Shown: positions 30,406 to 48,188 of the stretch, piece by piece
Numbering within the stretch: position 1 is the first letter of the stretch
Layout of the letters: each line of letters opens with the position of its first letter
DNA from: Saprospiraceae bacterium
GTDB taxonomy: Bacteria; Bacteroidota; Bacteroidia; Chitinophagales; Saprospiraceae
Direction of reading: 5' to 3'
NCBI GenBank assembly: GCA_020631355.1
Contig: JAHDHL010000009.1
Location: 1 to 64,000, forward strand
Length of the DNA: 64,000 nt
The notes under the pieces: model-generated
The model's database searches: none
Told to the model about the DNA's origin: nothing
The model's input: the letters and a program-made list of their open reading frames with translations, nothing else
Made by a program: the position numbers and the translations under genes

Positions 30406-32727
30406 ATGAAAAAATCGATTCTATGGATGCTGATGATCTGTAGTTTCTCTTTGTTGGCCCAACAGGAAAAATTTACCATTAGTGGCTACATTGAGGATGC
30501 AGGCAGTGGCGAGAAACTCATCGAAGCCAATGTATTTGATGATGTTTCCGTCTCTGGAACCGTAAGTAATTTGTACGGTTTTTACAGCATCACATTACCT
30601 AAGGATAGTGTGAAATTATCATTCTCCTACATCGGTTATGCAACGCAGAGTTACGAGATATACCTCGACCAGGATATTACACTGGATATCAGGCTGGGCG
30701 CAGAGTCAGCCCTGGAAACCGTAACGGTTACCGCAGAAAAAATTACCGAAAAAATAGAGGAACAAACCCAGATGTCGAAAGTGGATGTTCCAATAGAACA
30801 AATCAAGCAGATTCCAGCCCTTTTGGGTGAAGTGGATGTGATGAAGGCCCTCCAGTTGTTGCCGGGAGTACAATCCGGAGGAGAGGGAACCAGTGGTTTG
30901 TATGTCCGTGGCGGTAGTCCGGACCAGAATCTGGTATTACTGGATGGGGTTCCGGTATACAATGTCAGTCACTTATTCGGTTTCTTTTCCGTATTCAATG
31001 CGGATGCTATTCGTAATGTAACCCTGACCAAGGGCGGTTTTCCTGCCCGTTATGGAGGCCGATTGTCATCGGTTTTGGATATCAATATGAAAGAGGGAAA
31101 TGATAATTCATTCCACGGAGAGGGAAGTATCGGTCTGATTGCTTCGAAACTAACGCTGGAGGGTCCCATCGTCAAGGACAAGACTTCGTTTATCATCTCT
31201 GGTAGAAGAACCTATGCGGATTTGATAGCTAGGCCTTTCATCAAACGGAATGCCGATGGAAATCTCGGAGGATATTATTTCTATGACTTGAATGCCAAGA
31301 TTAATCATAAATTCAATAATAAGCATCGCCTATACCTGAGTTCCTATATGGGACAGGATGTATTCTATCTGGATGTGACGGAGGATGACTTCAAGCTAGA
31401 GAGTGGATTCGATTGGGGGAATGTGACTTCCGCCCTGAGATGGAATTACATGATTAATAATAAACTCTTTGCCAATACGACCTTGACATTCAGCCGCTAT
31501 CAATTTGATTTGAATACCAAATCCACGGATATATTTGATGATGAGGAAGAATCATTCGCAGCCAAGTACGTTTCCAATATCAGGGATTATGCTGCTAAGA
31601 TTGACTTCGATTACATGCCCAATCCTAATCATTATATAAGATTCGGGGTGAATGCCATTAACCACCAATTCAAACCGGGCGCCTTACAGTACAATATTTC
31701 AGATGGGAATGAATTCAATATTGATACAGTGATTGGTACCCAGAATACGAATGCTTGGGAATACTTCGCTTATGTGGAGGATGATATGAAAATCGGTCAG
31801 GATTTTAGTGCGAATATAGGTTTTCACATGTCAGGATTTTCAGTGGATGGCAAGACTTACTTTGCACCACAAGCCAGATTGGGTATGAGATATTTACTAC
31901 CTAAGGATATTGCACTAAAGGCATCCTATTCCATGATGACGCAGTATGTCCATCTATTGACCAATGAGGGCGTAGGCCTTCCAACGGATCTTTGGGTTCC
32001 ATCTACGAGTCGGATTAAACCACAGAATTCATGGCAGGCAGCCCTCGGTATTGCCAAGACGATTGGAGCGGATTATGAATTCAGTCTGGAGGGATATTAC
32101 AAACAAATGAATAATCTTTTATCCTACAAGGAAGGGGCAAGTTTCCTATCCTTTGATGATTGGCAGGACAAAGTGGAACAGGGTCAGGGAAAGAGTTATG
32201 GCGCGGAAGTATTGGTGCAGAAGAAAAAGGGAAATACCACAGGATGGATTGGATATACCCTTTCATGGAACCTGAGACAGTTCGATAATATCAATAGCGG
32301 AGAAGAATATCCTTTCAAGTATGATAGAAGACATGATATCAGTGTCGTTGTTTCCCATAAGTTCAATGATCGGATTTCCGTAGCAGGAACGTGGGTATAC
32401 GGTACAGGAAATGCCATTACCCTCAATGAAGCCCGTTACATTGCCTATAACCCAACCACAGAGGGGTTCGGCTTTACGGAAACAAGTGTCGTGGGAGTTC
32501 CCGGGTCCAAGAACAATTATAGAATGGATTCTTACCATAGACTGGATTTAGGTGTGAATTTTACCCGTCAAAAACGAAGATACCAACGAACATTCTCCAT
32601 TGGCACCTACAATACCTACAGTAGGCGAAACCCATTCTTCATTTATTACAATGAAAGCCAAAGGAGCTTCAAGCAAGTCAGTATTTTCCCACTAATTCCA
32701 TATTTCTCATGGAGTTTCAAATTCTAG
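30406..32727 (+). CDS. TonB-dependent receptor with CarboxypepD-like domain
   Basis: 773 residues: a signal peptide ending LLAQQ, a carboxypeptidase regulatory-like domain at about 22-100, a plug domain with GLYVRGGSPDQNLVLLDGVP and GGFPARYGGRLSSVLDI, and a barrel ending FSWSFKF. The extra N-terminal domain is typical of SusC/RagA-like receptors of Bacteroidota. Three DUF4249 lipoprotein genes follow downstream and are probably its partners. The ligand cannot be told. Confidence 0.92.
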   Translation: MKKSILWMLMICSFSLLAQQEKFTISGYIEDAGSGEKLIEANVFDDVSVSGTVSNLYGFYSITLPKDSVKLSFSYIGYATQSYEIYLDQDITLDIRLGAESALETVTVTAEKITEKIEEQTQMSKVDVPIEQIKQIPALLGEVDVMKALQLLPGVQSGGEGTSGLYVRGGSPDQNLVLLDGVPVYNVSHLFGFFSVFNADAIRNVTLTKGGFPARYGGRLSSVLDINMKEGNDNSFHGEGSIGLIASKLTLEGPIVKDKTSFIISGRRTYADLIARPFIKRNADGNLGGYYFYDLNAKINHKFNNKHRLYLSSYMGQDVFYLDVTEDDFKLESGFDWGNVTSALRWNYMINNKLFANTTLTFSRYQFDLNTKSTDIFDDEEESFAAKYVSNIRDYAAKIDFDYMPNPNHYIRFGVNAINHQFKPGALQYNISDGNEFNIDTVIGTQNTNAWEYFAYVEDDMKIGQDFSANIGFHMSGFSVDGKTYFAPQARLGMRYLLPKDIALKASYSMMTQYVHLLTNEGVGLPTDLWVPSTSRIKPQNSWQAALGIAKTIGADYEFSLEGYYKQMNNLLSYKEGASFLSFDDWQDKVEQGQGKSYGAEVLVQKKKGNTTGWIGYTLSWNLRQFDNINSGEEYPFKYDRRHDISVVVSHKFNDRISVAGTWVYGTGNAITLNEARYIAYNPTTEGFGFTETSVVGVPGSKNNYRMDSYHRLDLGVNFTRQKRRYQRTFSIGTYNTYSRRNPFFIYYNESQRSFKQVSIFPLIPYFSWSFKF

Positions 32728-32732
32728 GAATC

Positions 32733-33608
32733 ATGAAAATCAAACATATATTTTTCGCCATATTCGCTACCGTATTACTTACGGGATGCGAGGACTTTTT
32801 CGACAGTGTGACAGATGTGGATATAGAACCTCATACTTCAAGATTGGCTGTATTTGCATACTTTGACCAAGAGGCTGACAATTTTACCGTAAGGGTAGGG
32901 GATAGCCAAGGGTATATTACCAATCAATCACCTAATCTGATTAGTGATGCCACAGTGGTATTATCCCAGAATGGTACCGCTGTAGGTACATTCAATTATG
33001 CAGGAGATGGTGAGTATACCATGCCCAATACCCTCACATATTCACCGAATGATGTATTTAGACTGGATGTTACGGCACCCGGATACGAGTCCGTTTTTTC
33101 CACAGCTACCCTTCCTCCGGAATTCACCGTCACCGAAATCAATAACTCAGGTATGACTTTCAGTCAGGAATACGGAGAAACATTGCCAGAGTATGAGGTC
33201 GTTATTGATGATAATTCAAATGACGAAAATTTCTATGCCATTGAAGTATATCGTGGGGATATCGTGAATGAGGCATTGTATCATATGTATCTTACGACCA
33301 ATGATGTCAATATAGAAGAATGGTGGGGTGGTCTATTGATTATGAATGATAGGGCATTCAATGGTAATACCTACAAGGCCAAGATTCTACTGGATACCTA
33401 CGACGAATTACAGGAGGACGAGGGGTATCTGTTCATCGTAAAATCCATTACGAATGATATGTACCAATATGCCAAATCCTATACGAATTATCAGTATAGT
33501 GTGGATAATCCTTTTGCTGAACCGGTGACTGTCACTTCGAATATGGAAGATAATGGTTTTGGTATCTTTACTTTCATAAGGAACCAAGATTACTTTGTAA
33601 CCGAATAA
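32733..33608 (+). CDS. DUF4249 lipoprotein, first of three
   Basis: 291 residues; the ATG at 32733 gives the lipoprotein signal (MKIKHIFFAIFATVLLTGC) while the ORF opens eight codons earlier inside the receptor gene. After Cys comes the family opening EDFFDSVTDVDIEPHTSRL, then NGTAVGTFNYAGDGEYTM and an end reading NPFAEPVTVTSNMEDNGFGIF. Very similar ends close the two following paralogues. DUF4249 proteins are partners of TonB receptors in Bacteroidota; role unknown. Confidence 0.85.
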   Translation: MKIKHIFFAIFATVLLTGCEDFFDSVTDVDIEPHTSRLAVFAYFDQEADNFTVRVGDSQGYITNQSPNLISDATVVLSQNGTAVGTFNYAGDGEYTMPNTLTYSPNDVFRLDVTAPGYESVFSTATLPPEFTVTEINNSGMTFSQEYGETLPEYEVVIDDNSNDENFYAIEVYRGDIVNEALYHMYLTTNDVNIEEWWGGLLIMNDRAFNGNTYKAKILLDTYDELQEDEGYLFIVKSITNDMYQYAKSYTNYQYSVDNPFAEPVTVTSNMEDNGFGIFTFIRNQDYFVTE

Positions 33609-33613
33609 TTCCA

Positions 33614-34507
33614 ATGTTGGAAATTTTGCATGTGAGTACATCCCGGCTGGTTCTACTGGTCGGGATGTCGTTAATTTTAGGAGGCTGTGAACAAGTAGTG
33701 GATGTTCGCCTGCCTGAGCATGAACCTCGACTGGTTTTGTTTGCTTATCTCAATACCCAAGGAGCCATACCTAAATTTACGGTCGGTCATTCTGCTGGGT
33801 TCATTGCCGATGATGTACCTGAGAGCATTCCTACTGCCGATTTGGTATTGAGCCAGAATGGCACATCACTAGGAGAAATAAATTATGCTGATGATTTAAA
33901 CAGTCCGGCTGAATATGAAGCTGCCTTTTCCTTGGATATTCCTCCAAATGAAATGCTTCGTATCGAAGTATCCGAAGCCGATTATCCAACCATCACAGCA
34001 GAACAGACCGTTCCACAAGACGTATGGATTCAGGAAGTGAACTACACGGGGGAGGATGCCGACCCTGAGAATGGAGAAATTCGCGAATCCTTTGATATCA
34101 CGATTCCGGATGATGGTAATGTCACCAATTATTACAGCATCCAAGTCTTGACCTTGGATACCATTACAGGGGATTATAATCAGAAAAAAGCCACATCACC
34201 GAATACTTTCCTGCAACGAGGTATCAAAAAAGAACTCCTTTTTAATGATGCTGCCTTTAATGGCAATGAATACACGGTCAGGGTATTGGCTGATGTCCGC
34301 CATACGGATCTGCCGGAACACCGCATACTTGTCTTTAGATTGAATAGCATCAGTGAGGAACGCTATCGTTATGCCCGTACTTTTAGGCAATACAAGGAAA
34401 GCCAAGGGAATCCATTTGCTGAACCGGTGACGATATTTACCAACATTCAAGGCGGTTATGGCGTTTTCTCCTTGGAAAAGCGACACGAATTTATCTTTGG
34501 ATTATGA
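33614..34507 (+). CDS. DUF4249 lipoprotein, second of three
   Basis: 297 residues with lipoprotein signal (LILGGC), starting 5 nt after its paralogue. It has the same opening (EQVVDVRLPEHEPRLVLFAY), a SAGF segment shared with the third paralogue, and the same close (NPFAEPVTIFTNIQGGYGVF). The last four bases overlap the start of the third gene. Confidence 0.85.
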   Translation: MLEILHVSTSRLVLLVGMSLILGGCEQVVDVRLPEHEPRLVLFAYLNTQGAIPKFTVGHSAGFIADDVPESIPTADLVLSQNGTSLGEINYADDLNSPAEYEAAFSLDIPPNEMLRIEVSEADYPTITAEQTVPQDVWIQEVNYTGEDADPENGEIRESFDITIPDDGNVTNYYSIQVLTLDTITGDYNQKKATSPNTFLQRGIKKELLFNDAAFNGNEYTVRVLADVRHTDLPEHRILVFRLNSISEERYRYARTFRQYKESQGNPFAEPVTIFTNIQGGYGVFSLEKRHEFIFGL

Positions 34508-35376
34508 AAAGATTACTCTTACTCTATACCATCTTATGTATATGTTCATGTGAGACGGTCATAGACCTCGATGTGGAAGCCCATGAGTCCATCATGGTCA
34601 TCCATTGTCTGGCAGACAATACACTGGAATCACCCGAGGTTTGTGTGGGTTATTCTGCAGGATATCTGGATGATGACCAACCGGGGATTTTGATGGAAAA
34701 TGTGGATATCCTTATTCGAAAAAACGGTCAGGAAGTCGAGACATTCTTTTCCAGTTTGGTGCCTGATGGTTGTCATGATGAGGATACGGGATTTAAATTT
34801 GATGAAATTGGAGCCTTGTACGAACTGGAAGTGACACATCCTGATTATCAATCCATTTATGCTCGCCAAATCATGCCCTCCATTCCTGGGATATCGGCTG
34901 CGACCTACGAACAGGCTGGTACTTATGACCCTTTCAAGGATACCAGATATGATAAGTTGAAGGTGACTTTTGAGGATGATGCAGCAACTGAGGATTATTA
35001 TTGGATACAAGGTTTTATTAGGAATAGGTGTTGTGAGGAAGATTTTTACTCTCTTTGGACTTGGTCAGACAACTTTCTACTAGAAGAAACCGTAGCCAGC
35101 CAAGGACTGGTATTCAATGACGGAACCTTTAATGGAGAGGAAGTCGTTTTGGATCTCAAACTGGATGATACTTACATCGAATTGGACAATCATCTGATTT
35201 ACGTTCGTTTCAGTAAAATAACGAGGGATGCATACCTGAATTTCAAGACAAGAAAAGCTTATCAGGATGCAGAGAATAATCCTTTTGCAGAACCGGTGAC
35301 CATTCATTCCAATATCGAGAATGGTTTTGGTATTTTTGGCCTTGAGGCAGTCAATCTGTATCAGGTCACAAACTGA
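34504..35376 (+). CDS. DUF4249 lipoprotein, third of three
   Basis: 290 residues with lipoprotein signal (CICSC), starting by ATGA overlap with the second paralogue. Opening ETVIDLDVEAHESIMVIHC, SAGYLDDDQP, and the close NPFAEPVTIHSNIENGFGIFG. It is the most diverged of the three and has extra Cys residues (RNRCCEED) in the middle. Likely the last gene of the receptor operon; the MOSC gene follows 15 nt later and could also be included. Confidence 0.85.
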   Translation: MKRLLLLYTILCICSCETVIDLDVEAHESIMVIHCLADNTLESPEVCVGYSAGYLDDDQPGILMENVDILIRKNGQEVETFFSSLVPDGCHDEDTGFKFDEIGALYELEVTHPDYQSIYARQIMPSIPGISAATYEQAGTYDPFKDTRYDKLKVTFEDDAATEDYYWIQGFIRNRCCEEDFYSLWTWSDNFLLEETVASQGLVFNDGTFNGEEVVLDLKLDDTYIELDNHLIYVRFSKITRDAYLNFKTRKAYQDAENNPFAEPVTIHSNIENGFGIFGLEAVNLYQVTN

Positions 35377-38736: not shown

Positions 38737-39177
38737 ATGAAACTGACATTCCTAGAGATACCATTCGCAAGTCCATTATTCGATGAATCCATCCGACTGA
38801 GATACGATGTACTCAGGGAGCCTCTTGATTTGGAATTCTCCGTCAATGATATCCTCGCCGAGCAGACCCAGATTCACCTGGGAGGTTATGACGAGCAAAT
38901 GAAACTCAGGGCCTGTCTGGTTCTTTTTCCACAAGAAGAAGGAGTAGTGAAGATGAGACAGGTCGCCGTGGACCCTGATTGTCAGAAAATGGGATTGGGT
39001 ACACAGTTGGTCATCGAATCCGAAAAATGGTCAAAGCGGAACGGATACAAGCATATGATGATGCATGCGCGTGAATCCGCCATTCCTTTCTATGCCCGCT
39101 TGGGATACGAAAAGTATGGCAGGAAATTCACGGAGGTAAAGGTTCCGCATTATCGCTTGAGAAAGGATCTCAAATAA
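38737..39177 (+). CDS. GNAT-family acetyltransferase
   Basis: 146 residues with the acetyl-CoA-binding motif (VAVDPDCQKMGLGTQLVIE, Q-x-x-G-x-G/A pattern) and the family's C-terminal RESAIPFYARLGYEKYG. The target is unknown; ElaA/YitI-like members acetylate small molecules or protein N-termini. Starts 18 nt after the HMG-CoA lyase stop and converges with the paralogue array 7 nt away. Confidence 0.85.
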   Translation: MKLTFLEIPFASPLFDESIRLRYDVLREPLDLEFSVNDILAEQTQIHLGGYDEQMKLRACLVLFPQEEGVVKMRQVAVDPDCQKMGLGTQLVIESEKWSKRNGYKHMMMHARESAIPFYARLGYEKYGRKFTEVKVPHYRLRKDLK

Positions 39178-39184
39178 CCGTCCT

Positions 39185-40375
39185 TTAGAAAATTACATTT
39201 TCCTTTTCTACCTCTTCGATGCGTTTCGTAAGATGTATCATACTATCCAAGTTCCTGATGGCATGGTCAATGATGCCCATGGTGAAGTTCCCATAGTGCT
39301 TGAACTCCTCATTCTTATAACTCAGGATACTGATATGATGATGATGCTCGTTCTTGTCCTCGATTTGTAGAATCAACTGGTCATCCAATAACTCCTCGGA
39401 TTCTTTTTGGGGCTTCGGTACGGGCTTTTTAGGCAAATCCTCCCCAAAGGAGATATGGCCCTTCAACTTACCATGGTTATGGATGCTGTTGATGGTGCGC
39501 TCATCCAGTAAGGTTTTGATATAGGATTCATTATTGGATTGTACGATATACAATTTATCAAAAGCATCATTACCTACAACGATATCCTGCATCCCCAGCT
39601 TTTTCTTAATGGAACTTTTCCCCTTTTCGGGATATATCTTGAAATTGAAAAGGTGTGGATTCCTACAACGGGCATTGAAACGCAAGGTATGGAACTGGTA
39701 CATACTCGAAAATCTGAAGTCAATTTCGGTATTGCCGACCTTACCCATCACAATAATGTCCTTGTTGGCCAAGGGATGAAAGGGAACAAGTTTCAAACCC
39801 TCATGCTTCTCCACATACTGTTGGAACTTATTGATGATTTGCTGGTGCTTGGAACCAGCCAACCATGTATTGATGATTAGTTCATAATCATCGTCCGTAA
39901 TGGAAACGCCCTTGAATTCATTCAATTCCCTAAGATTCCCCTCTCCATCCAACAATGTCCTCGATTTGAATGAAATGTTTTTCTGATTCAAATTCCAAAA
40001 ATTGGTTGTTTTCTCAATCTTCCAGATATCCTGATGTGTATAGGTATTCGTGAACCTCGATCCATCATTACCCGCAAAATAAAAGGCATCATGAGTGACA
40101 ATATACCGATGGCTCATGGATGAAAGCATGTCCTTAATTATCATGAATAAAAACATTAATGGTATTAGGACATGTAGATTGAACTCGAAATGCATCCAAT
40201 GGGTGGGAAGATCCGTTCTGATAAAAACTAAATAGACATACGCACAAACAAATAATATGATGACAATCAACTCAAGGAAAGCTTTCTTAGAGCTGACATA
40301 TTGGGTCCAAACGACATCCTTTTCCGTTATGTCGAAATGGTCAAGTACTTTCTGTGGAATGGGCTTGTCTTTCAT
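39185..40375 (-). CDS. Two-helix PH-like membrane protein, sixth of six paralogues
   Basis: 396 residues from the ATG at 40375; the ORF runs 20 codons further up, but that opens on GTG and lacks the family start. Two helices (FLELIVIILFVCAYVYLVFI and VLIPLMFLFMIIKDM), a PH-like segment (YIVTHDAFYFAGN...YTHQDIWKIEK), then the shared domain with KLGMQDIVVGNDAFDKLYIVQS. A basic linker (KKPVPKPQKESEELLDDQ) and a C-terminal helix follow. It lies at the 3' end of the array, 95 nt after its neighbour. Function unknown. Confidence 0.75.
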   Translation of the reverse strand: MKDKPIPQKVLDHFDITEKDVVWTQYVSSKKAFLELIVIILFVCAYVYLVFIRTDLPTHWMHFEFNLHVLIPLMFLFMIIKDMLSSMSHRYIVTHDAFYFAGNDGSRFTNTYTHQDIWKIEKTTNFWNLNQKNISFKSRTLLDGEGNLRELNEFKGVSITDDDYELIINTWLAGSKHQQIINKFQQYVEKHEGLKLVPFHPLANKDIIVMGKVGNTEIDFRFSSMYQFHTLRFNARCRNPHLFNFKIYPEKGKSSIKKKLGMQDIVVGNDAFDKLYIVQSNNESYIKTLLDERTINSIHNHGKLKGHISFGEDLPKKPVPKPQKESEELLDDQLILQIEDKNEHHHHISILSYKNEEFKHYGNFTMGIIDHAIRNLDSMIHLTKRIEEVEKENVIF

Positions 40376-40470
40376 GGCTGAAAATTGTTGGATGAAGTGT
40401 ATGATGAATATATGTCTTAACTCAGAAACTTGCACCTATTCTCGAATAATCCAAGAAGATATTCGACCAA

Positions 40471-41574
40471 TCAATCCCCTGCTGTGGAACGATTATAAGA
40501 TTCGATGCTTTGGGCAAGAGCAGACAATCCCTGGATGAGGTCAATCATGTCATCCACTGCTTTCATAAGGTCACTTGAATAATTGATGTGCTTGGAGGAA
40601 AATTTGAGAACGGATACCTTTCCTGCATCTAGGGTAGGGGTGTGGGATGGAATCAGATGGTCATCCAAGAGGTCATTTTCCGTGGGCTGGTTTAATGCTT
40701 TTTCCCTTAGTTCTTGTGGCGTTCCCATGGAGATGGTTCCTTTTGATTTTTTCAATACGGGCAATAAATCCATTAAGATTTCTGTATTGAGCACTTGTTC
40801 CAAAAAAGGAATATGATTTCCCTTTAGGATAAGTGCCTTATCCAATTCCTTTTGGCCCATTTGGTAATCTTGCATCCCAAAAGCCTTACTGATGGAGTCA
40901 CTGGTTTTTTCGGGCCGGATGTGGAGGTAATTATTTTCTTCATTTGATACATGGAATGTGATGTCCAAACGAATGAATTGGTGCATGCCATAGAGATAAA
41001 AGCCGAATCTGGAATCGTTGAGGAAACCATCCATAAAAATATTGAGTCTGGCAGCCCAGTCGTATGTATGTAATTGTAAATCATGCAGAGTACTGAAATC
41101 TGAAAATCGCTGATTTATTTTTTTAAATATGGATGTGGCAAACCAATTTTCTTTGATATCATAAAAGGTTTCGTTAGGGATACTGATATTTTTTAATTCG
41201 AGGTTGTCCATGAAGTTGCCAGGGTAACGATGGATAGAAAGTGTTTTTTCGTGATTGAAATAATCTATTCTTTTAATATCAGAATAGGCAATGACGAATT
41301 TTCGGGTATACAATTTTTTATCTGTGAAAATAAAATCGTATTCGTAATTTTTGATTTGTTCCTTGTATACGGTAAATGCAAAAAATGCAAAACCAAATGT
41401 ACAGAGCAGCATGATATCAATGTCCTGAAAAATGAAAATCAAACTGGTGATAAATCCTACGCTGAAAATCGTTAGGGGAATAGTCTTAGGGCTAAATCTG
41501 TTTTCCAATTTAGATAAAATTATTTTTTCATCATTAGGAATCAGATCCGTTAATTGAGTCGGATGATAGAACAT
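40471..41574 (-). CDS. Two-helix PH-like membrane protein, fifth of six
   Basis: 367 residues from ATG 41574; the ORF's first codon is TTG at 41601. Two helices (TIPLTIFSVGFITSLIFIF, IMLLCTFGFAFFAFTVY), then the clearest PH-like segment (YDFIFTDKKLYTRKF, then IAYSDIKRIDYF) and the shared domain with AFGMQDYQMGQKELDKALIL. It ends in a helix (KAVDDMIDLIQGLSALAQSI). Starts 4 nt after the fourth paralogue. The gene and its neighbour are more AT-rich than the rest of the array. Confidence 0.75.
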   Translation of the reverse strand: MFYHPTQLTDLIPNDEKIILSKLENRFSPKTIPLTIFSVGFITSLIFIFQDIDIMLLCTFGFAFFAFTVYKEQIKNYEYDFIFTDKKLYTRKFVIAYSDIKRIDYFNHEKTLSIHRYPGNFMDNLELKNISIPNETFYDIKENWFATSIFKKINQRFSDFSTLHDLQLHTYDWAARLNIFMDGFLNDSRFGFYLYGMHQFIRLDITFHVSNEENNYLHIRPEKTSDSISKAFGMQDYQMGQKELDKALILKGNHIPFLEQVLNTEILMDLLPVLKKSKGTISMGTPQELREKALNQPTENDLLDDHLIPSHTPTLDAGKVSVLKFSSKHINYSSDLMKAVDDMIDLIQGLSALAQSIESYNRSTAGD

Positions 41575-41578
41575 GAGT

Positions 41579-42715
41579 CTATTTCTTGCTGGTTTTTTCA
41601 ATGTTCTTGGCTATTTTTAACATCATCTCCATAATGGCGATGATGTCATGTGCTAATTGAGAATAATCCTGTGTGTGATTGAAGCTTCTGCATTGTAATG
41701 TCAGGGAATCTTTTTTCCCTATTTCCCTTTCCTTAGTGTATGGTGTTACGGTAAGGTGTTCGTCCAATGTCCCTTGTTCTCTAATGGATTTGCCTTTGGT
41801 TTCTTCTTCTTTCTGGTACTCGCCGAATTCTATGGTGCCGTCAGTGAGTGGGATGTATTGTTGTATCTGGGCCATCAATGTTTCATCGAGTATGTCCATG
41901 ATGTCTTCCTTGTCATTCCCTTGTAATAAGATGGCTTCATCGAAAATGGAATGACCTATTTCTATATCCTGAACCCCAAGTAATTTTCCGATAGTATGAA
42001 TATCCTTTTCTGCTTTCATCCTGAAATATAAATGATGTTCATTGCTGCACTTCATTTGAACTTTCAAGTAATTAATATTATTCACTTCCTTGATGACTGC
42101 ATGAAATTGCAAGGGATTTTTTTTCTTCGATTTGATTTCTAGTGGTGTTTTTTCGAAATGCTTGAAAATGCGAGTGCTGAATTTATGTTTCTTTGCAAAT
42201 GATAATATGATAATATTGAAAAGATGATAGGGGGATTTATCTTTCCAGATAGCTTGTATCTTAGATTGGATTTGTGAGGCTGGTAAATCCGTAGGAATAT
42301 GTACGGTTGATTTTTTGAAATTTTCTTTTCGTCTGATCTTGATTTTTATTGTATCTATGCCATCCTTGATGTTCCTGACATCTATGCTGAAAATTTCATC
42401 ATAAGGATAAATTTCTGCTTTTCGTTTATTATTAAGGATAATTATTTTTCTACTTGTAATAACAAACCCCTTGTTAAAAATAAAATAAAAAAATATTTCA
42501 AGAAAAAGTAATACTGCTACCGCCATAAGGAAGAAGCCGAAAATGGACATGGTAGTTTCTGTGATAATTAATAATATACCACTGATGGAAAGTGCCAATA
42601 AAATACTGAATTGACTGAGTAAGTTTAGCTTTTTCTCATATTCCACATGTGTGACAACTTCCCCCTTTTCAAGCCATTTGCTAAAATGCTTTATTTTTTC
42701 GCTTCTTTTACTCAA
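41579..42715 (-). CDS. Two-helix PH-like membrane protein, fourth of six
   Basis: 378 residues; the start is TTG at 42715, 11 nt after the third paralogue; no ATG lies at a suitable place and the next Met is at residue 56. Two or three helices (LSQFSILLALSISGILLIIT, GFFLMAVAVLLFLEIFFYFI), PH-like FVITSRKIIILNNKRK...YPYDEIFSID, and the shared domain with LLGVQDIEIGHSIFDEAILL. C-terminal TLDEHL motif and helix. AT-rich like the fifth paralogue. Confidence 0.72.
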   Translation of the reverse strand: MSKRSEKIKHFSKWLEKGEVVTHVEYEKKLNLLSQFSILLALSISGILLIITETTMSIFGFFLMAVAVLLFLEIFFYFIFNKGFVITSRKIIILNNKRKAEIYPYDEIFSIDVRNIKDGIDTIKIKIRRKENFKKSTVHIPTDLPASQIQSKIQAIWKDKSPYHLFNIIILSFAKKHKFSTRIFKHFEKTPLEIKSKKKNPLQFHAVIKEVNNINYLKVQMKCSNEHHLYFRMKAEKDIHTIGKLLGVQDIEIGHSIFDEAILLQGNDKEDIMDILDETLMAQIQQYIPLTDGTIEFGEYQKEEETKGKSIREQGTLDEHLTVTPYTKEREIGKKDSLTLQCRSFNHTQDYSQLAHDIIAIMEMMLKIAKNIEKTSKK

Positions 42716-42726
42716 AATTAGAATGA

Positions 42727-43743
42727 TTAATCGAGGTAATAATCCTGTATTCGTCCTGCGATGGAATACATGACTTCAAAATTCTTAATACAATGATTCA
42801 ATATGATTTGAACATTGAATAAGCTACCACCTACATCAGGACAGTGATAGGTCAATGGAATTAATTCTTCCGTATAATTCGCAGTATCAGGAAAGAATTC
42901 ATGTAATAATCCCTCATCCAAAATATCAAATTCAGGTACATCCTTATCCTTGGATGTTTTCTTTTTGGTTACGGGTAAATCCCCCCAGGTAATCTGACTG
43001 TCAAAATACCGCCATGCATCCATCATCAGTTGCTGTACGGGATAGGTCAGTGCATAGCGAATCAACTTTTGGTCACTACTCTTAATGAAGAAGAAGTTAT
43101 CGAATTCTTTTCTGTTGACTTGAATGTCCTGTCCCCCTGCACCGAATAGTTTTTCCAGTCCATTCCCTAATTTCTCTTTCTTGATTCGAATGAAGGTATT
43201 CTTAGGATTAGGCAGGAAAAACCGAATGGTCAATTGCTTCATCTTGTAGATGTTATCCAGGAAGAAAATACACTTCATACCGTCTAGCTCTCCGGAAATT
43301 TTGAGGAATGTTCTGGTATTGGTTTTGGGTAGGCTCAGGGCCAATCCATATTGGTCGGCCAATCTTCGCATGTATTTGACCCTTTGCGCATAGGGCGATT
43401 CCTTGTTCCACAAGGAAACAATCAGATTCCTCACCTCACTGGTATCCCGAAGATTCTCTACGGCGAAACCCAGATGCTGGTTTTCTTGTCCCAATGGAAG
43501 TTTTACATTGGGTTGGGTGATGAGTAGAATCCGTTTCTGATTCATTCTCGTTCCGATTGCAACCTGATATACCTGCGAAAAATAACAGGAACGAAGATGA
43601 TTGGGCTTGATACAATTGATGACTCGAAGATTGGTAATCACATAATGAATGATATTCACCCGATTCTTCAGTACCATATGTACCGTTTCCTCGGGGCGTA
43701 ATAAGTCTCTGATGACGCGGGGAAGATTTGACTTGGGTATCAT
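42727..43743 (-). CDS. PH-like protein without helices, third of six
   Basis: 338 residues from ATG 43743; the ORF's first codon 43788 is TTG and overlaps the second paralogue. It differs from the others by lacking the two membrane helices: the PH-like segment (HYVITNLRVINCIKPNHLRS...YFSQVYQVAIG) starts about residue 33. The shared domain has the variant FGAGGQDIQVNRKEFDNFFFI. The C-terminus has ILDEGLLHEF and a closing helix. Starts 4 nt after the second paralogue. Likely a soluble subunit of whatever the others form. Confidence 0.75.
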   Translation of the reverse strand: MIPKSNLPRVIRDLLRPEETVHMVLKNRVNIIHYVITNLRVINCIKPNHLRSCYFSQVYQVAIGTRMNQKRILLITQPNVKLPLGQENQHLGFAVENLRDTSEVRNLIVSLWNKESPYAQRVKYMRRLADQYGLALSLPKTNTRTFLKISGELDGMKCIFFLDNIYKMKQLTIRFFLPNPKNTFIRIKKEKLGNGLEKLFGAGGQDIQVNRKEFDNFFFIKSSDQKLIRYALTYPVQQLMMDAWRYFDSQITWGDLPVTKKKTSKDKDVPEFDILDEGLLHEFFPDTANYTEELIPLTYHCPDVGGSLFNVQIILNHCIKNFEVMYSIAGRIQDYYLD

Positions 43744-43747
43744 GTAT

Positions 43748-44911
43748 TTATCTGTCGTTGTATGCTTTGATTTCCAATGCCAGTGCAATCATCATTTCTA
43801 GGGATTTGGCGAATTGCTTGGCGATGACCTTATAGTTGGTAGTGTGTTTGTGAACATAGTCACAGGAAAGTATCAACGGACTAACGAATGATTCATCCCT
43901 TTTGATAGTTGTCCCAATCTCACTGAGTAGGTGGGCATCCAGCACTGAAGCATCATCCTGCGTTGTTTTCTTTTTCTTACTAGAAGTGGGTTCTATTCCC
44001 ATAGTGATTTCCCAATCCATATTCAGAATGGCTCTCTTGACCATTTCCCGCATATTCGGATGCATAATGGTTTCAAAGAAATGCTCATGGTCGCTTTGCA
44101 ATAGGAACAAGTCGTCAAATTGCTTATTTCCTGTTTTCAAGTCCTGTAATCCAACAATTTTTCCCAATTGGGTCCCAACATTTTCTCTCTTGATTCTCAG
44201 ATAATTCCTCTCTGCATTGGGACAATTGATTCTTACCTTGAACATCTGCAAGTGGTTCAGGTAGCCGATTTGGCAGGATACTTCCATGCCTTTCACAGTC
44301 CCATGCACAATCATTTTCTGCTTTACATCATTAGGATTGAAGTCCTCTATTTCCAAATCATACTTCCTTGTGATGGGCTCGAAATGCTCATTGAATATTC
44401 TATAAGGATATTTCTTGACCCAAGCATTCCGTATGATAGCAAGGGTTTCTTTCATCTGACTCGGCTTTCGAATGACAGGAGTGTGATTCTCATTTTTTGC
44501 ATTCGCAAAATAGACAGGGTTCAAGTGCAGCGCTATACCGGGCTCTGAAGTTCCATAATTCCCACTGATTTTATAAATATTCCTATAATAGTAAGAGGTA
44601 TGTTGGAATTTGGAATGGGGAGTCCGGTCAAAAATAATCCTATCAGTGGTTGCAAGGTAATAGAGATTATTACTGTTGTAATTATATCGGATAATAGCAA
44701 TGACTGCAATAAGGAAAATTGCATAGGGTATCACCTGTGTAGATTCCTTCAACAGACCAATGGTGATTAGCACTACCAGAATGGTAGTAATGATGGTTGT
44801 GGAGATGATATAAGTCATCTTGCTCATCAAGAGTTTACCTTTTTCATGCCAAATGACTTCCTCGTCATTTTTCAGTAGTCGCTTATATTTTTCAGGATAA
44901 TCCAAAATCAT
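43748..44911 (-). CDS. Two-helix PH-like membrane protein, second of six
   Basis: 387 residues starting MILDYPEKYKRLLKNDEEVIW (similar to the first paralogue). Two helices (YIISTTIITTILVVLITIGL, IPYAIFLIAVIAIIRY), PH-like LYYLATTDRIIFDRTPHSK...YYYRNIYKISG, W-x-x-K-x-P segment, and the shared domain with IVGLQDLKTGNKQFDDLFLL. C-terminal VLDAHLLSEIG and closing helix. Overlaps the first paralogue by ATGA (44908-44911). Confidence 0.75.
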   Translation of the reverse strand: MILDYPEKYKRLLKNDEEVIWHEKGKLLMSKMTYIISTTIITTILVVLITIGLLKESTQVIPYAIFLIAVIAIIRYNYNSNNLYYLATTDRIIFDRTPHSKFQHTSYYYRNIYKISGNYGTSEPGIALHLNPVYFANAKNENHTPVIRKPSQMKETLAIIRNAWVKKYPYRIFNEHFEPITRKYDLEIEDFNPNDVKQKMIVHGTVKGMEVSCQIGYLNHLQMFKVRINCPNAERNYLRIKRENVGTQLGKIVGLQDLKTGNKQFDDLFLLQSDHEHFFETIMHPNMREMVKRAILNMDWEITMGIEPTSSKKKKTTQDDASVLDAHLLSEIGTTIKRDESFVSPLILSCDYVHKHTTNYKVIAKQFAKSLEMMIALALEIKAYNDR

Positions 44912-46035
44912 GGTTGGAATGATTGAATGTTCTTTGCAATGTTAATCATAGTAGGAATGATTTCCAAAATATGTTGGATGGCGCCATCGGTTTTGTATCC
45001 ACCCAAGTCATCCACCTGATATTTCATTTGGGATACATTACCTCTGGATTGTTGTTTCCTTTCCTTTTGGAAGACTCCTGCATCCAAGATGTCTGTGTCA
45101 TATGATGGATGTTTCTTCTTGGAATTAGAGAATCCTTCTCCCATGGAAAAGGAACCGGGTATCTTATATTTCATTTGGGACAAGGACTGAATGACATCAT
45201 CGTCTATGATGTTATAAAAGAATCGACTATCATCACTCCTACAGAAATAGGCCTTGTCGAATGCCTCATTTCCTACTTCTATATCATGTGTGCCCAGTCG
45301 CTTGATCCATCTCGCTGCCCGGTTTTCCGGCCCCAAATAAAAATGATGCTTCCACTCGTTGGGGCAAGTCATTGCTAATTTGAACTGATTGATTTCCAAT
45401 AATGAATCAATGTGGCACTCCAAGGGCATTCCGTTGACATTGCCTCTGATACTGATGATATTTTTCTTTTGATAAAGATGCTCATCCATATGGAAGCCAT
45501 ATCGGTTGACCAAGGCTTGGAACTGCTCGTAATGTGCTACGAATGGCGATTTTTTCTTCCAAGCCGGACGGATTACTTCCACAGCCGATTCGAATGCTCT
45601 TATATTCCTGATTACGGGATAATCTTTTTCTTCCTCAGAAAAATAAAGACGGGATGTCTGCAATACCAGGTCATTGTTGCGTCCCCATAACTTATAAATC
45701 TTTCGATAGGAATAGGCATTATAGGATTTATAATCCTCACCTCCCTTGTAAAAGAAAATGATACGGCTATCCGTAGCAATGTAGGTGGTGGTTTTCTTTT
45801 GCGATTCCTTGAATATCCCTAAGGCAATTAGGGGGAAGATTAGAATGATTATCCACATGAAACTATGCTCCACTTCCAATAAGGCCAATGAGATGACCAA
45901 TATCGAAAGGGCAATCAATGAAATGATGATGGATAAGATAGGGTTGACGGCTTCTGTCTCTCCCTCTTGGACCCATATGATTTTCTCATTCGAGCCCAAT
46001 AAATTACGGAATTGGTCCTCGTATTTTTGAAACAT
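44908..46035 (-). CDS. Two-helix PH-like membrane protein, first of six
   Basis: 375 residues, first gene of the array as transcribed. N-terminal MFQKYEDQFRNLLGSNEKIIW, two helices (PILSIIISLIALSILVISLA, FMWIIILIFPLIALGIF), PH-like YIATDSRIIFFYKGGED...YSYRKIYKLWG, then IRPAWKKKSPF, and the shared domain with RLGTHDIEVGNEAFDKAYFC followed by SFSMGEG. C-terminal ILDAGVF and closing helix (about 350-370). The whole array shares E-x-V/I-I-W, PH-like, W-x-x-K-S-P and G-x-x-D-I-x-x-G-x-x-x-F-D features. I know of no characterised member. Confidence 0.75.
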   Translation of the reverse strand: MFQKYEDQFRNLLGSNEKIIWVQEGETEAVNPILSIIISLIALSILVISLALLEVEHSFMWIIILIFPLIALGIFKESQKKTTTYIATDSRIIFFYKGGEDYKSYNAYSYRKIYKLWGRNNDLVLQTSRLYFSEEEKDYPVIRNIRAFESAVEVIRPAWKKKSPFVAHYEQFQALVNRYGFHMDEHLYQKKNIISIRGNVNGMPLECHIDSLLEINQFKLAMTCPNEWKHHFYLGPENRAARWIKRLGTHDIEVGNEAFDKAYFCRSDDSRFFYNIIDDDVIQSLSQMKYKIPGSFSMGEGFSNSKKKHPSYDTDILDAGVFQKERKQQSRGNVSQMKYQVDDLGGYKTDGAIQHILEIIPTMINIAKNIQSFQP

Positions 46036-46160: not shown

Positions 46161-46703
46161 TTAAAGATTAAATCCTTTAGGATTACTCTTTATATATTGA
46201 GCAACTTTCCCGATTATATAGTTTTCTTTATCGATAGAGTAATACTCTTTGTCTAGCTCTGAGAGTCTTTTTGATTGGTCTGTTGTAAAGGTTGGTTCAT
46301 TATTTACATATGATGTATTTTCAAGTATCTGTAATGCCTCAACTAGAATATTTTGAATTCTGATGATATCCATTATTTCAGCTGCTTTCAGGGCTTCATT
46401 TAGAGTTTCACCTTTTGTATTATTTAGATATTGCAGGAACCCGCCATTCTTAACATTCATGTCAAGTAACCAGAAACAGTATAGATTCTTTTCGAATTTG
46501 GATATACGTTGTATGAATTCTTTTTTACTTTCTTGCGGTATATGTTGTTTCTTAGCAATATCTATAAAAACATCACTAATAAGTTTGATATCACTTGTTT
46601 TGTTAGTGGGGATGATATTGCTACTTCGGTGCTCTGCACTAGAATTTTTCTTGCATGCTGTAAGCAGCAGTAATACAAAGAAATAGATGTGAGCATGTCT
46701 CAT
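46161..46703 (-). CDS. DUF4375-like lipoprotein
   Basis: 180 residues with a lipoprotein signal (LLTAC, Cys about residue 17). Residues about 55-125 resemble DUF4375/DMP19-like domains, seen in FWLLDMNVKNGGFLQYLNN (the N-G-G-F-x-Q-Y motif) followed by ALKAAEIMDI. The family is of unknown role and is often associated with polymorphic-toxin immunity loci, but that is association, not function. AT-rich compared with the array, 125 nt upstream of it and in the same direction. Confidence 0.6.
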   Translation of the reverse strand: MRHAHIYFFVLLLLTACKKNSSAEHRSSNIIPTNKTSDIKLISDVFIDIAKKQHIPQESKKEFIQRISKFEKNLYCFWLLDMNVKNGGFLQYLNNTKGETLNEALKAAEIMDIIRIQNILVEALQILENTSYVNNEPTFTTDQSKRLSELDKEYYSIDKENYIIGKVAQYIKSNPKGFNL

Positions 46704-46750
46704 AAGTGGAAAGAATAAATAATGCTTAACAATGAAATGAATATTTAAGA

Positions 46751-47092
46751 CTATTTCGTAGTATACTTATCAAGTATTTCATCATATAATTCATCAATAT
46801 GTTTAGGAATACCATGCTGATAAATTTTCAACTCCTTTCCCTTGATATGTGTGAAAAATATTTTATCCAAATTAATTTCTAATTTCCCTTTTGAATATTC
46901 TGCTTGCCACCATTCATGAAATTCTTCTTCATCAAAAGTAAATGCATCGTATACAGGATACTTGAATTCAGAAGTCTAATAAAACCCCTTATTTACGTTA
47001 TTTATAATCGTCTCCATTAAGTTTTCCACATCCTCATAGTCCTCATGTTTTTCTTCATCAACATTTTTATCAAGTTCTTTTTTGGATATTTT
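46751..47092 (-). pseudogene. Decayed ORF with internal TAG
   Basis: On the minus strand one frame reads on both sides of a TAG (plus-strand 46976-46978), with a TAA bounding it upstream (47093-47095). The part after TAG has FDEEEFHEWWQAEYSKGKLE and ends KHIDELYDEILDKYTTK; the part before is Lys/Glu-rich. There is no good start codon. Composition is AT-rich. It looks like a relic of a small gene; family not recognised. Confidence 0.5.
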
Positions 47093-47129
47093 TTACTTTT
47101 TCATTTTTTCTTTGCTAACAATAGAAAAA

Positions 47130-47167
47130 AACATCCCTTTCAAACCATATAGGATGAAAGGGATGTT
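47130..47167 (-). terminator. Terminator of the fructose-bisphosphatase gene
   Basis: Stem AACATCCCTTTCA (47130-47142) against TGAAAGGGATGTT (47155-47167), thirteen pairs. On the minus strand it is followed by a run of T, 8 nt after the fbp stop codon. Confidence 0.85.
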
Positions 47168-47174
47168 AATGTGC

Positions 47175-48188
47175 CTAGCTCAAAACAGGCGAGGCACTAT
47201 ATCTTTCGACAAAGGCTTTCATCTCATCCACCATTTGTGGAGAACCAATCACAATGGAAGCCCTTTGGTGCAATTCAGTCGGTTTGATGTCCATGATGCG
47301 CTGTAAACGGGTATTGATGGATTTTCCGCCGGCTTGCTCCATAATGAATGACATTGGATTACATTCATATAATAATCTCAATTTCCCATCAGGATACTTT
47401 CTTGTACTTGGATAAAGGAAAATACCTCCTTGGAATAGGATTCTGTGGATATCCGCTACCATCGTACCGATATAACGAAGCCTTAGATTCTCGTCACTGC
47501 AGTTATCCACATAACGACGCATCTCAAGGTCGAACTTGCTGTAATATCCTTGATTGATGGAATAATACTGTCCCGTTTTAGGAATCTGTATATTTCTGTG
47601 CGATAGGCAGAACTCTCCGATACTAGGGTCTAGTGTGAAACCATTCACACCATGTCCGGTCGTGTAGACCAAGATGGTGGAAGTACCATAAATGACATAA
47701 CCTGCGGCAATCTGCTCCACACCTTTTTGTAGGAAGTCCTCCAACTTACAGGGCCCATCATCCGGACTGATTCTCCTGTAAATACTGAAGATGGTACCTA
47801 CCGATACATTCACATCAATATTGGAAGAACCATCCAATGGATCAAATAATACCACATACTTGGCATTCTTGGATTCGATGGCCTTGAGTGGAACGAAGTC
47901 CTCGTTTTCCTCTGATGCAATACCACAACACTCACCGCTGCCACTCAGGCATTCTATGAGTTTGTCATTGGCATACATATCCAGTTTCTGAACGGATTCT
48001 CCGGAGGAATTCTCCGCACCATGAACTCCAAGGATGTTCACGAGTCCTGCTCGGTTGACTTCCCTGTTCACGATTTTGGCCGCAACACCGATATCCCGCA
48101 ACAATGCGGTCAATTCTCCTGTTGCAAAATGGAAATCCTTTTGGCTTTTGATGATGAATTCATCTAGGGTAACAATTCTATTTGGCAT
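47175..48188 (-). CDS. fbp: Class I fructose-1,6-bisphosphatase
   Basis: 337 residues, the usual size. Signature [19 protein letters not shown] (about 122-140) holds the metal ligands; [12 protein letters not shown] near residue 275 is the C-terminal family signature. It removes phosphate from fructose-1,6-bisphosphate in gluconeogenesis, in the cytoplasm. Start [12 protein letters not shown] is preceded by a spacious intergenic region shared with the adhesin operon. A strong terminator follows. Confidence 0.95.

Follow-up and report, generated by a model that had tools for sequence, protein, structure and literature searches.

Six diverged PH/DUF3137-like fusion genes beside FBPase in a Saprospiraceae genome: a candidate family of independent inner-membrane adaptors

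Do six adjoining genes of one layout and strong divergence encode the parts of a single machine, or separate copies of one protein that come and go on their own? This question is raised by a 64,000-nucleotide stretch of Saprospiraceae bacterium (assembly GCA_020631355.1, contig JAHDHL010000009.1, positions 1 to 64,000; hereafter the window), which carries six minus-strand genes, termed here A to F, for proteins that combine a predicted PH domain with a DUF3137-like domain. We read the array as a lineage-specific birth-and-death family of independent inner-membrane adaptors and not as a fixed six-part machine, and give this reading a probability of about 0.45, i.e., somewhat under even odds. 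A fixed complex of six subunits is disfavoured because the copy number varies and conserved ortholog sets are lacking, these being the strongest points.

A single run of one paralogous family

A sequence-only reading of the window had described six minus-strand genes of 338-396 codons with spacings of -4, 4, 11, 4 and 95 nt from gene A to gene F, the 95 nt lying between genes E and F, and this was confirmed by reading the open reading frames (ORFs) over 39185-46035. Its term "one operon" is borne out by spacing and strand as an operon-like run; promoter-like sites in the array region number 32 against a mean of 35.7 in shuffles, hence no excess, and terminator-like sites 10 against 6.2 (standard deviation 2.8). 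That the six belong to one paralogous family also proved correct. With gene A as query, its own genome of 6.16 Mb returned the other five (E-values of 4.9e-37, 4.2e-21, 8.0e-14, 2.0e-11 and 6.1e-8) and zero further matches up to E 1, while the profile of the six recovered those six only, up to E 0.001, and no seventh copy. Pairwise identity is 17.1-23.9% over the 15 pairs of one alignment and 18-26% to gene A in a second one, with 14 invariant columns among the six proteins; this overall range of 17-26% agrees with the earlier view of strong divergence and no recent amplification within the six. The shared layout stands as to its order (helices, PH-like segment, W-x-x-K-S-P-like segment, G-x-x-D-x-x-x-x-x-x-x-x-D, G strand, LD and closing helix), but the motif letters do not hold throughout, some copies missing individual positions in the six-protein alignment. 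An NCBIfam scan of the six proteins gave nothing above model cut-off.

Slot, copy number and divergence among relatives

The array occupies a slot between FBPase and a GNAT acetyltransferase gene (Table 1). Among loci of named genomes found with FBPase as bait, 5 of 80 hold the family, all of them among the seven closest (FBPase 88-92% identical, Saprospiraceae metagenome-assembled genomes); the 73 more distant loci showed no copy within the flanks covered. Over the eight loci at the closest FBPases, the slot contains six copies in the window, at least two in L075, at least one each in L077 and L078, two in L080, at least two in L081, zero in the fully spanned L076 and none in the 1.4 kb seen of L079. 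These loci add no extra genomes, as L075, L077, L080 and L081 belong to G004, G005, G007 and G003, respectively, and L078 is G001:C278. In G007, where two copies stand instead of six, the flanking genes and their order are unchanged. L076, the closest fully spanned slot without array genes, has a subtilase (PF00082, E-value = 1.9e-37, L076:4947-7166) between FBPase and GNAT.

Counted over genomes of the genus, matches number six in the window's genome, two in G001, five in G002, four in G003, three in G004, one in G005, one in G006, three in G007 and none in G008, all as lower bounds; the single match of G006 (100% complete, 870 contigs) is a C-terminal piece only. Further copies lie at other places in these genomes, including two pairs beside a radA-like gene (by eye), and G001 has a hairpin-less single copy (G001:C29) besides a contig-end copy at the FBPase slot. 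The proposal that the six are different subunits of one complex fares badly here, with 0-5 matches (lower bounds) in the eight other genomes of the genus and no matching ortholog set. The dispersed copy of G007 (L041:604-8784) comes immediately after the gene of a DUF3686 ATPase of 1612 aa, a Band_7 protein being encoded two genes further upstream; in G006 (L051), an ATPase that resembles it by eye begins some 7 kb away from the C-terminal piece. ORFs in relatives' loci were picked as the longest ORF, so their starts are uncertain, and the labels radA, Ung-like, HMG-CoA-lyase-like, glycosyltransferase, SprB-like, PorP-like and the like for neighbours are assumed or given by eye.

At wider scope, 35 of 298 genomes of the family match at E 1e-6, near-full fused-length matches being confined to genera g1 and g6; in the phylum, 17 of 395 genomes give a match at E 0.001, which is partial in each but the window's own, and in the class the C domain finds 8 of 295 genomes at E 1e-6 in addition to the window's, with partial matches throughout. 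Since the genome searches score the best few candidates per genome (phylum 4, class 10, family 6, another 15), these counts are lower bounds; the phylum search recovered just four of the window's six genes. The six-gene order, whose lack of conservation the sequence-only reading had named as grounds for refutation, was not found in any locus read. Although this counts against the six-gene order, arrays of the fused protein or of either half, with other copy numbers, are present in five more genomes of the family, and the phenomenon is therefore real. Specifically, G534 (genus g6) has eight tandem fused copies, near a gene that looks Ung-like by eye, plus one more piece truncated at the contig end. 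In G013, also of genus g6, one fused copy and what seem to be broken pieces adjoin a gene resembling the Ung-like one. Unfused halves are arrayed as well: G497 and G030 have runs of nine ORFs (one of these interrupted) and five ORFs, respectively, for a lone C half of about 210 aa, and G932 and G586 have runs of seven (a contig end truncates the first) and five, respectively, for a lone N half of about 190 aa, with C-half genes elsewhere in both of these genomes. What relatives encode as two genes is a single fused gene in g1 and g6, which suggests that both products work together. The largest repertoire seen is that of G497, whose nine one-domain C-half ORFs (L166:5117-11322) are accompanied by seven more copies on other contigs.

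In a tree built from 34 fused proteins, a 100/99 branch separates the copies of genus g1 from those of genus g6; 14 of the 31 inner branches of the tree are open, and the end branches are long. Five changes are needed on it for the six window genes, a number that is as low in 162 of 500 shuffles. Among the starred groups of g1, a single one shares its position, formed by the gene that comes first after FBPase in G003, G005 and G007; gene D forms a group (99/92) with two G003 copies at another place, while genes A and B join the first G004 copy in an unstarred group (88/90). On this tree, the six window genes appear to be without a matching ortholog set. The supported positional ortholog is 37-40% identical between G003, G005 and G007, and its nonsynonymous distance (dN) is 0.53 for G007/G003 and 0.60 for G007/G005, against 0.050 and 0.039 for FBPase in the same genome pairs, the synonymous distance (dS) being near or beyond saturation in these comparisons; by these estimates it evolves 10-15 times faster than FBPase. 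The closest pair (G534ung7/8) has a dN/dS of 0.37 (N half 0.52, C half 0.25), i.e., it is constrained but fast. Recombination between the N and C halves was considered, as their nearest relatives sometimes differ, but identities of 20-30% make this uninformative.

Predicted domains of the two halves

Structure prediction covered the full-length product of gene B and, separately, the C domain of gene A. The AlphaFold2 model of gene B (14 sequences) reached a pLDDT of 81.7 and a pTM of 0.76. Its residues 2-167 take a PH fold (Z of 11.6 for 5yqr, 11.3 for 4tyz and 11.1 for 3dcx, PF08000; root-mean-square deviation (rmsd) of 2.9-3.1 Å over 100-102 residues), in support of the PH-like segment seen in the letters. 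The E-x-(V/I)-(I/V) start noticed earlier is present, though in another role, as it represents the first PH strand (residues 19-25 of gene B) with the two-helix hairpin (31-79) inserted behind it. Hydropathy found two hydrophobic helices in five of the six proteins, between residues 29 and 87, and none in gene C, as had been stated. Because the hairpin is an insertion after strand 1, gene C, G001:C29 and the G013 copy at a second place (C25) lose it yet keep the domain. In Pfam, gene A scores 22.1 bits for bPH_3, below the curated cut-off of 23, and the other five proteins have no bPH match. Profile-profile comparison of the N half with 16 stand-alone PH proteins bearing two transmembrane helices (PH/2TM) gave 98.4% (E-value = 1.1e-14) over 166 columns; three of nine such relatives scanned pass the bPH_2 or bPH_3 cut-off. 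The likeness to bPH_2/bPH_3 proteins of the YdbS type comprises the PH fold, an E-x-x-x-W-like start, the two-helix hairpin and a Y-x-x-T-x-x-R-I-like motif, whereas the window proteins stay below the cut-offs and have a large second domain fused on.

Concerning the C-terminal half, DUF3137 (PF11335) matches four of the six window proteins in Pfam (best 18.2 bits against a cut-off of 26.1; gene A 13.5 bits) and, at E up to 1, 13 of 29 proteins, six of the 29 being the window's (best 2.6e-7). Comparison by hhalign with 19 canonical DUF3137 proteins gave 91.6% and 94.1% over 127-128 columns. The resemblance to DUF3137 noted in the sequence-only reading is real by this comparison and at the same time remote, and the C-terminal half is best described, by its profiles, as a distant DUF3137 relative on a separate branch below the family cut-off. 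Because Pfam scores fall below the cut-offs while profile-profile comparisons match both families, the array proteins seem to join two module types already known, each of them far from the core of its family. The counter-view of an ordinary family with single-copy members holds in part: canonical DUF3137 occurs once per genome in nine of nine genomes of the genus at E 1e-10, the window's included (G000:C134), and the array proteins stand apart from it. Both forms have hydrophobic stretches before the domain (by eye), but the canonical one is a separate gene, in some genomes beside LemA, whereas the window genes have a PH domain fused on. LemA adjoins canonical DUF3137 in six loci (six neighbours picked by eye among 24 loci); a LemA-DUF3137 module was rejected for the array, as the canonical DUF3137 of this genome sits elsewhere and LemA found no match in it. 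In G022 (L191:452-3435), LemA is followed by three tandem canonical DUF3137 genes, which shows that small arrays exist for canonical DUF3137 too.

The C domain of gene A, modelled separately (pLDDT 77.4, pTM 0.77), was compared with 998 solved chains, only four of which reach a Z of 8 (the next is 7.0): 7tm3_4, which we take to be CCDC47 (Z = 11.4, 188 residues, rmsd 5.2 Å), the mycobacterial TtfA 6t84 (10.7, 158 residues, 5.4 Å), 9i78_4 (10.5, 182 residues, 4.7 Å) and 6w6l_7 (9.0, 170 residues, 5.6 Å). The same four chains match the C part of the gene B model (Z of 13.0, 10.5, 10.8 and 9.1, with rmsd of 6.6, 5.5, 5.6 and 4.3 Å, respectively), so that CCDC47 and TtfA come out best for the domain alone and within the full protein. 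In 6w6l and 9i78, the chain was assigned to CCDC47 from residue ranges, the presence of CCDC47 following PMC7505659 and PMC12572126. The likeness to CCDC47 (Z of 9.0-13.0 over 165-188 residues) and to TtfA (Z of 10.5-10.7 over 156-158 of 178 residues, rmsd 5.4-5.5 Å) is one of fold and holds for predicted models. Identity to CCDC47 is 6-10%, and the window proteins differ from it by the attached bacterial PH half; from TtfA, they differ by being PH fusions in arrays. Many stand-alone C-half proteins open with one hydrophobic helix (by eye), like residues 2-24 of TtfA (PMC6593404), several others, L053_7 and L183_7 among them, being without it. Type III secretion chaperones and related folds (Z of 5.6-7.0) were judged too weak. 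CCDC47 and TtfA were never named together in the literature searched, a body of text that left most subscription journals outside.

Table 1. Positions of the array genes, of the domains of gene B and of the genes bordering the slot (window coordinates).
Feature	Position	Strand	Basis
Gene A (1st), PH with transmembrane hairpin and DUF3137-like domain, 375 aa	44908..46035	-	ORF and family search
Gene B (2nd), layout as gene A, 387 aa	43748..44911	-	ORF and full-length model
Gene B residues 31-79, two-helix hairpin, predicted membrane, after PH strand 1	44675..44821	-	Model secondary structure and hydropathy
Gene B residues 82-165, remainder of PH domain	44417..44668	-	Structural alignment
Gene B residues 168-387, DUF3137-like domain with CCDC47/TtfA-like predicted fold	43751..44410	-	Model and hhalign
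Gene C (3rd), same family without transmembrane hairpin, 338 aa	42727..43743	-	ORF, alignment, hydropathy
Gene D (4th), 378 aa; groups with two G003 copies elsewhere	41579..42715	-	ORF, alignment, tree (99/92)
Gene E (5th), 367 aa from ATG at 41574	40471..41574	-	ORF, alignment
Gene F (6th), 396 aa; alternative GTG start at 40435 adds 20 aa	39185..40375	-	ORF, alignment
GNAT acetyltransferase, slot border	38737..39177	+	Pfam; relative borders slot in G007 and L076
FBPase, other slot border	47175..48188	-	Pfam; 88-92% identical in seven closest relatives
DMP19-like protein (PF14300, E 2.3e-17), lipoprotein-like N-terminus by eye; upstream neighbour	46161..46703	-	Pfam

Adaptors, subunits or immunity proteins

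Under the adaptor reading, the PH/hairpin half, with a YdbS-like layout and the hairpin in the beta1-beta2 loop, would dock the protein on the inner membrane, and the DUF3137-like domain, presumably cytosolic, would bind a membrane client, i.e., a transporter, the translocon or another envelope protein. The model for client binding would be TtfA with MmpL3 and CCDC47 at the translocon, accessory factors beside membrane-embedded machines: MmpL3-dependent transport needs TtfA (PMC6593404) and CCDC47 is part of the multipass translocon (PMC7505659; PMC12572126). Each copy might thus be an independent adaptor tuned to its own client or threat; with one adaptor per client or threat, copies would be expected to come, go and diverge quickly at fixed slots. 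A role in envelope protection is a first guess, suggested by the turnover and by proteins of the YdbS/YdbT type. The latter act in bacteriocin export, and in E. faecalis their deletion stops this export, the retained peptide being toxic to the producer (PMC8657885); in B. subtilis, ydbST is down-regulated in a sigW mutant (PMC3498285). YdbS-YdbT and DdE-DdF resemble the array as adjoining genes with repeated PH/2TM units, but they form a pair and not a variable array, and a DUF3137-like domain is not mentioned for them in the part of the source available (PMC8657885).

Several points weigh against this reading. The match to CCDC47 and TtfA is one of fold, no sequence match to these chains having been found with profiles of 6 and 60 sequences, Foldseek gave no match at E 0.001 (best 2.6e-3, TM-scores of 0.47 and 0.37), and the superpositions have an rmsd of 4.3-6.6 Å with a prediction on the query side. 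The open branches of the tree and the unstarred group of genes A and B with the G004 copy may hide some orthology, and the genus genomes (completeness 72-100%) are mostly fragmented, which makes the copy numbers lower bounds. FBPase is a slow yardstick: between the window and G007, GNAT is 51% and a flanking lipoprotein-like protein 44% identical, and compared with the 37-40% of the positional ortholog the family is therefore fast but not beyond comparison; no positive selection was shown. A client, toxin or partner gene consistently linked to the copies was not seen, most neighbours being without a family search, and no PADLOC model matches any of the six, a known defence system being set aside for them on this ground. 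Finally, ring formation by PH domains of PF08000 (PMC2817789) would suit a hetero-oligomer.

In such a hetero-oligomer, which we consider rather unlikely, the six products would be subunits of one inner-membrane ring or stack joined through their PH domains, with gene C as a soluble member. The single run with near-zero spacings and the one paralogue without hairpin are in line with it, as are the C5 and C12 rings of PF08000 in crystals (PMC2817789), YdbT with its three PH/2TM units beside YdbS (PMC8657885) and the possibility that genes A and B each have kin in G004. Fused copies per array range from 1 to 8, however, with one fully spanned slot holding none; matching ortholog sets are lacking on the tree, and single dispersed copies occur, such as the hairpin-less G001:C29, though G001 has its second, contig-end copy at the FBPase slot. 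We regard as unlikely that the genes are an immunity or resistance array, in which the weapons of competitors (a membrane-active toxin, a bacteriocin or a contact-dependent effector) would each be neutralised by a copy of its own. The family diverges fast, varies in copy number and seems dispensable, in line with this view, and the ties of YdbS/YdbT-like proteins to bacteriocin export and sigma-W (PMC8657885; PMC3498285) point the same way, but among the neighbours of the copies, few of which had a family search, neither a toxin nor a secretion gene was recognised, PADLOC has no match, and gene B finds nothing at E 0.001 among 72,556 plasmid and 50,697 phage records, a result by which a mobile origin was also rejected. 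The C-domain model likewise found no match at E 0.001 among viral folds. A largely neutral expansion of an ordinary accessory membrane family, with weak constraint, easy duplication and drift, is improbable: it would account for a dN/dS of 0.25-0.52 over the halves of the closest pair, the lone C-terminal piece in G006, the apparently broken pieces in G013 and the interrupted ORF in G497, but the six window ORFs are all open with 14 invariant columns, and six genomes have arrays of 5 to 9 ORFs, of which nearly all are open.

A wider extension of the adaptor reading is speculative and, in our judgement, doubtful: in bacteria, the place of the CCDC47/TtfA fold would be taken by DUF3137-like domains, as cytosolic adaptors anchored in the membrane that clamp onto inner-membrane machines, and their fusion to a PH/hairpin in Saprospiraceae would have given, in variable arrays, an undescribed repertoire of client-specific intramembrane chaperones or guards. 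DUF3137 is nearly absent from the literature searched, and the fold relation, if confirmed, would offer a testable mechanism for the family and a possible bacterial counterpart of a part of the eukaryotic translocon. The arrays also suggest that membrane adaptors can behave as a fast-turnover gene repertoire, which often signals conflict or specialisation. Both module types are already known; the PH/DUF3137-like fusion, its arrays and the fold link between DUF3137-like domains, CCDC47 and TtfA were not met in the literature searched, where a search for tandem PH paralogues gave nothing relevant by title. The sequence-only reading knew of no described system of this form, and none turned up in the few searches of the same literature.

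Apart from the array, the DMP19-like gene upstream of gene A, a neighbour and not a demonstrated member of the array, has no BLAST match among the genes of the relatives' loci and no PADLOC match. It was considered as an immunity gene and set aside, the term "immunity protein" being counted nowhere in the one paper found. Between it and FBPase (46704-47175) lies a frame of about 100 codons with one internal stop that looks like a decayed gene, and the slot may therefore also lose other genes. A second tandem expansion is found near the array, where three consecutive lipoprotein-like paralogues (32709-35376) follow a 773-aa gene. In G007, a single protein (L038_3) matches this trio, with 44% identity to the third member and 28% and 23% to the others.

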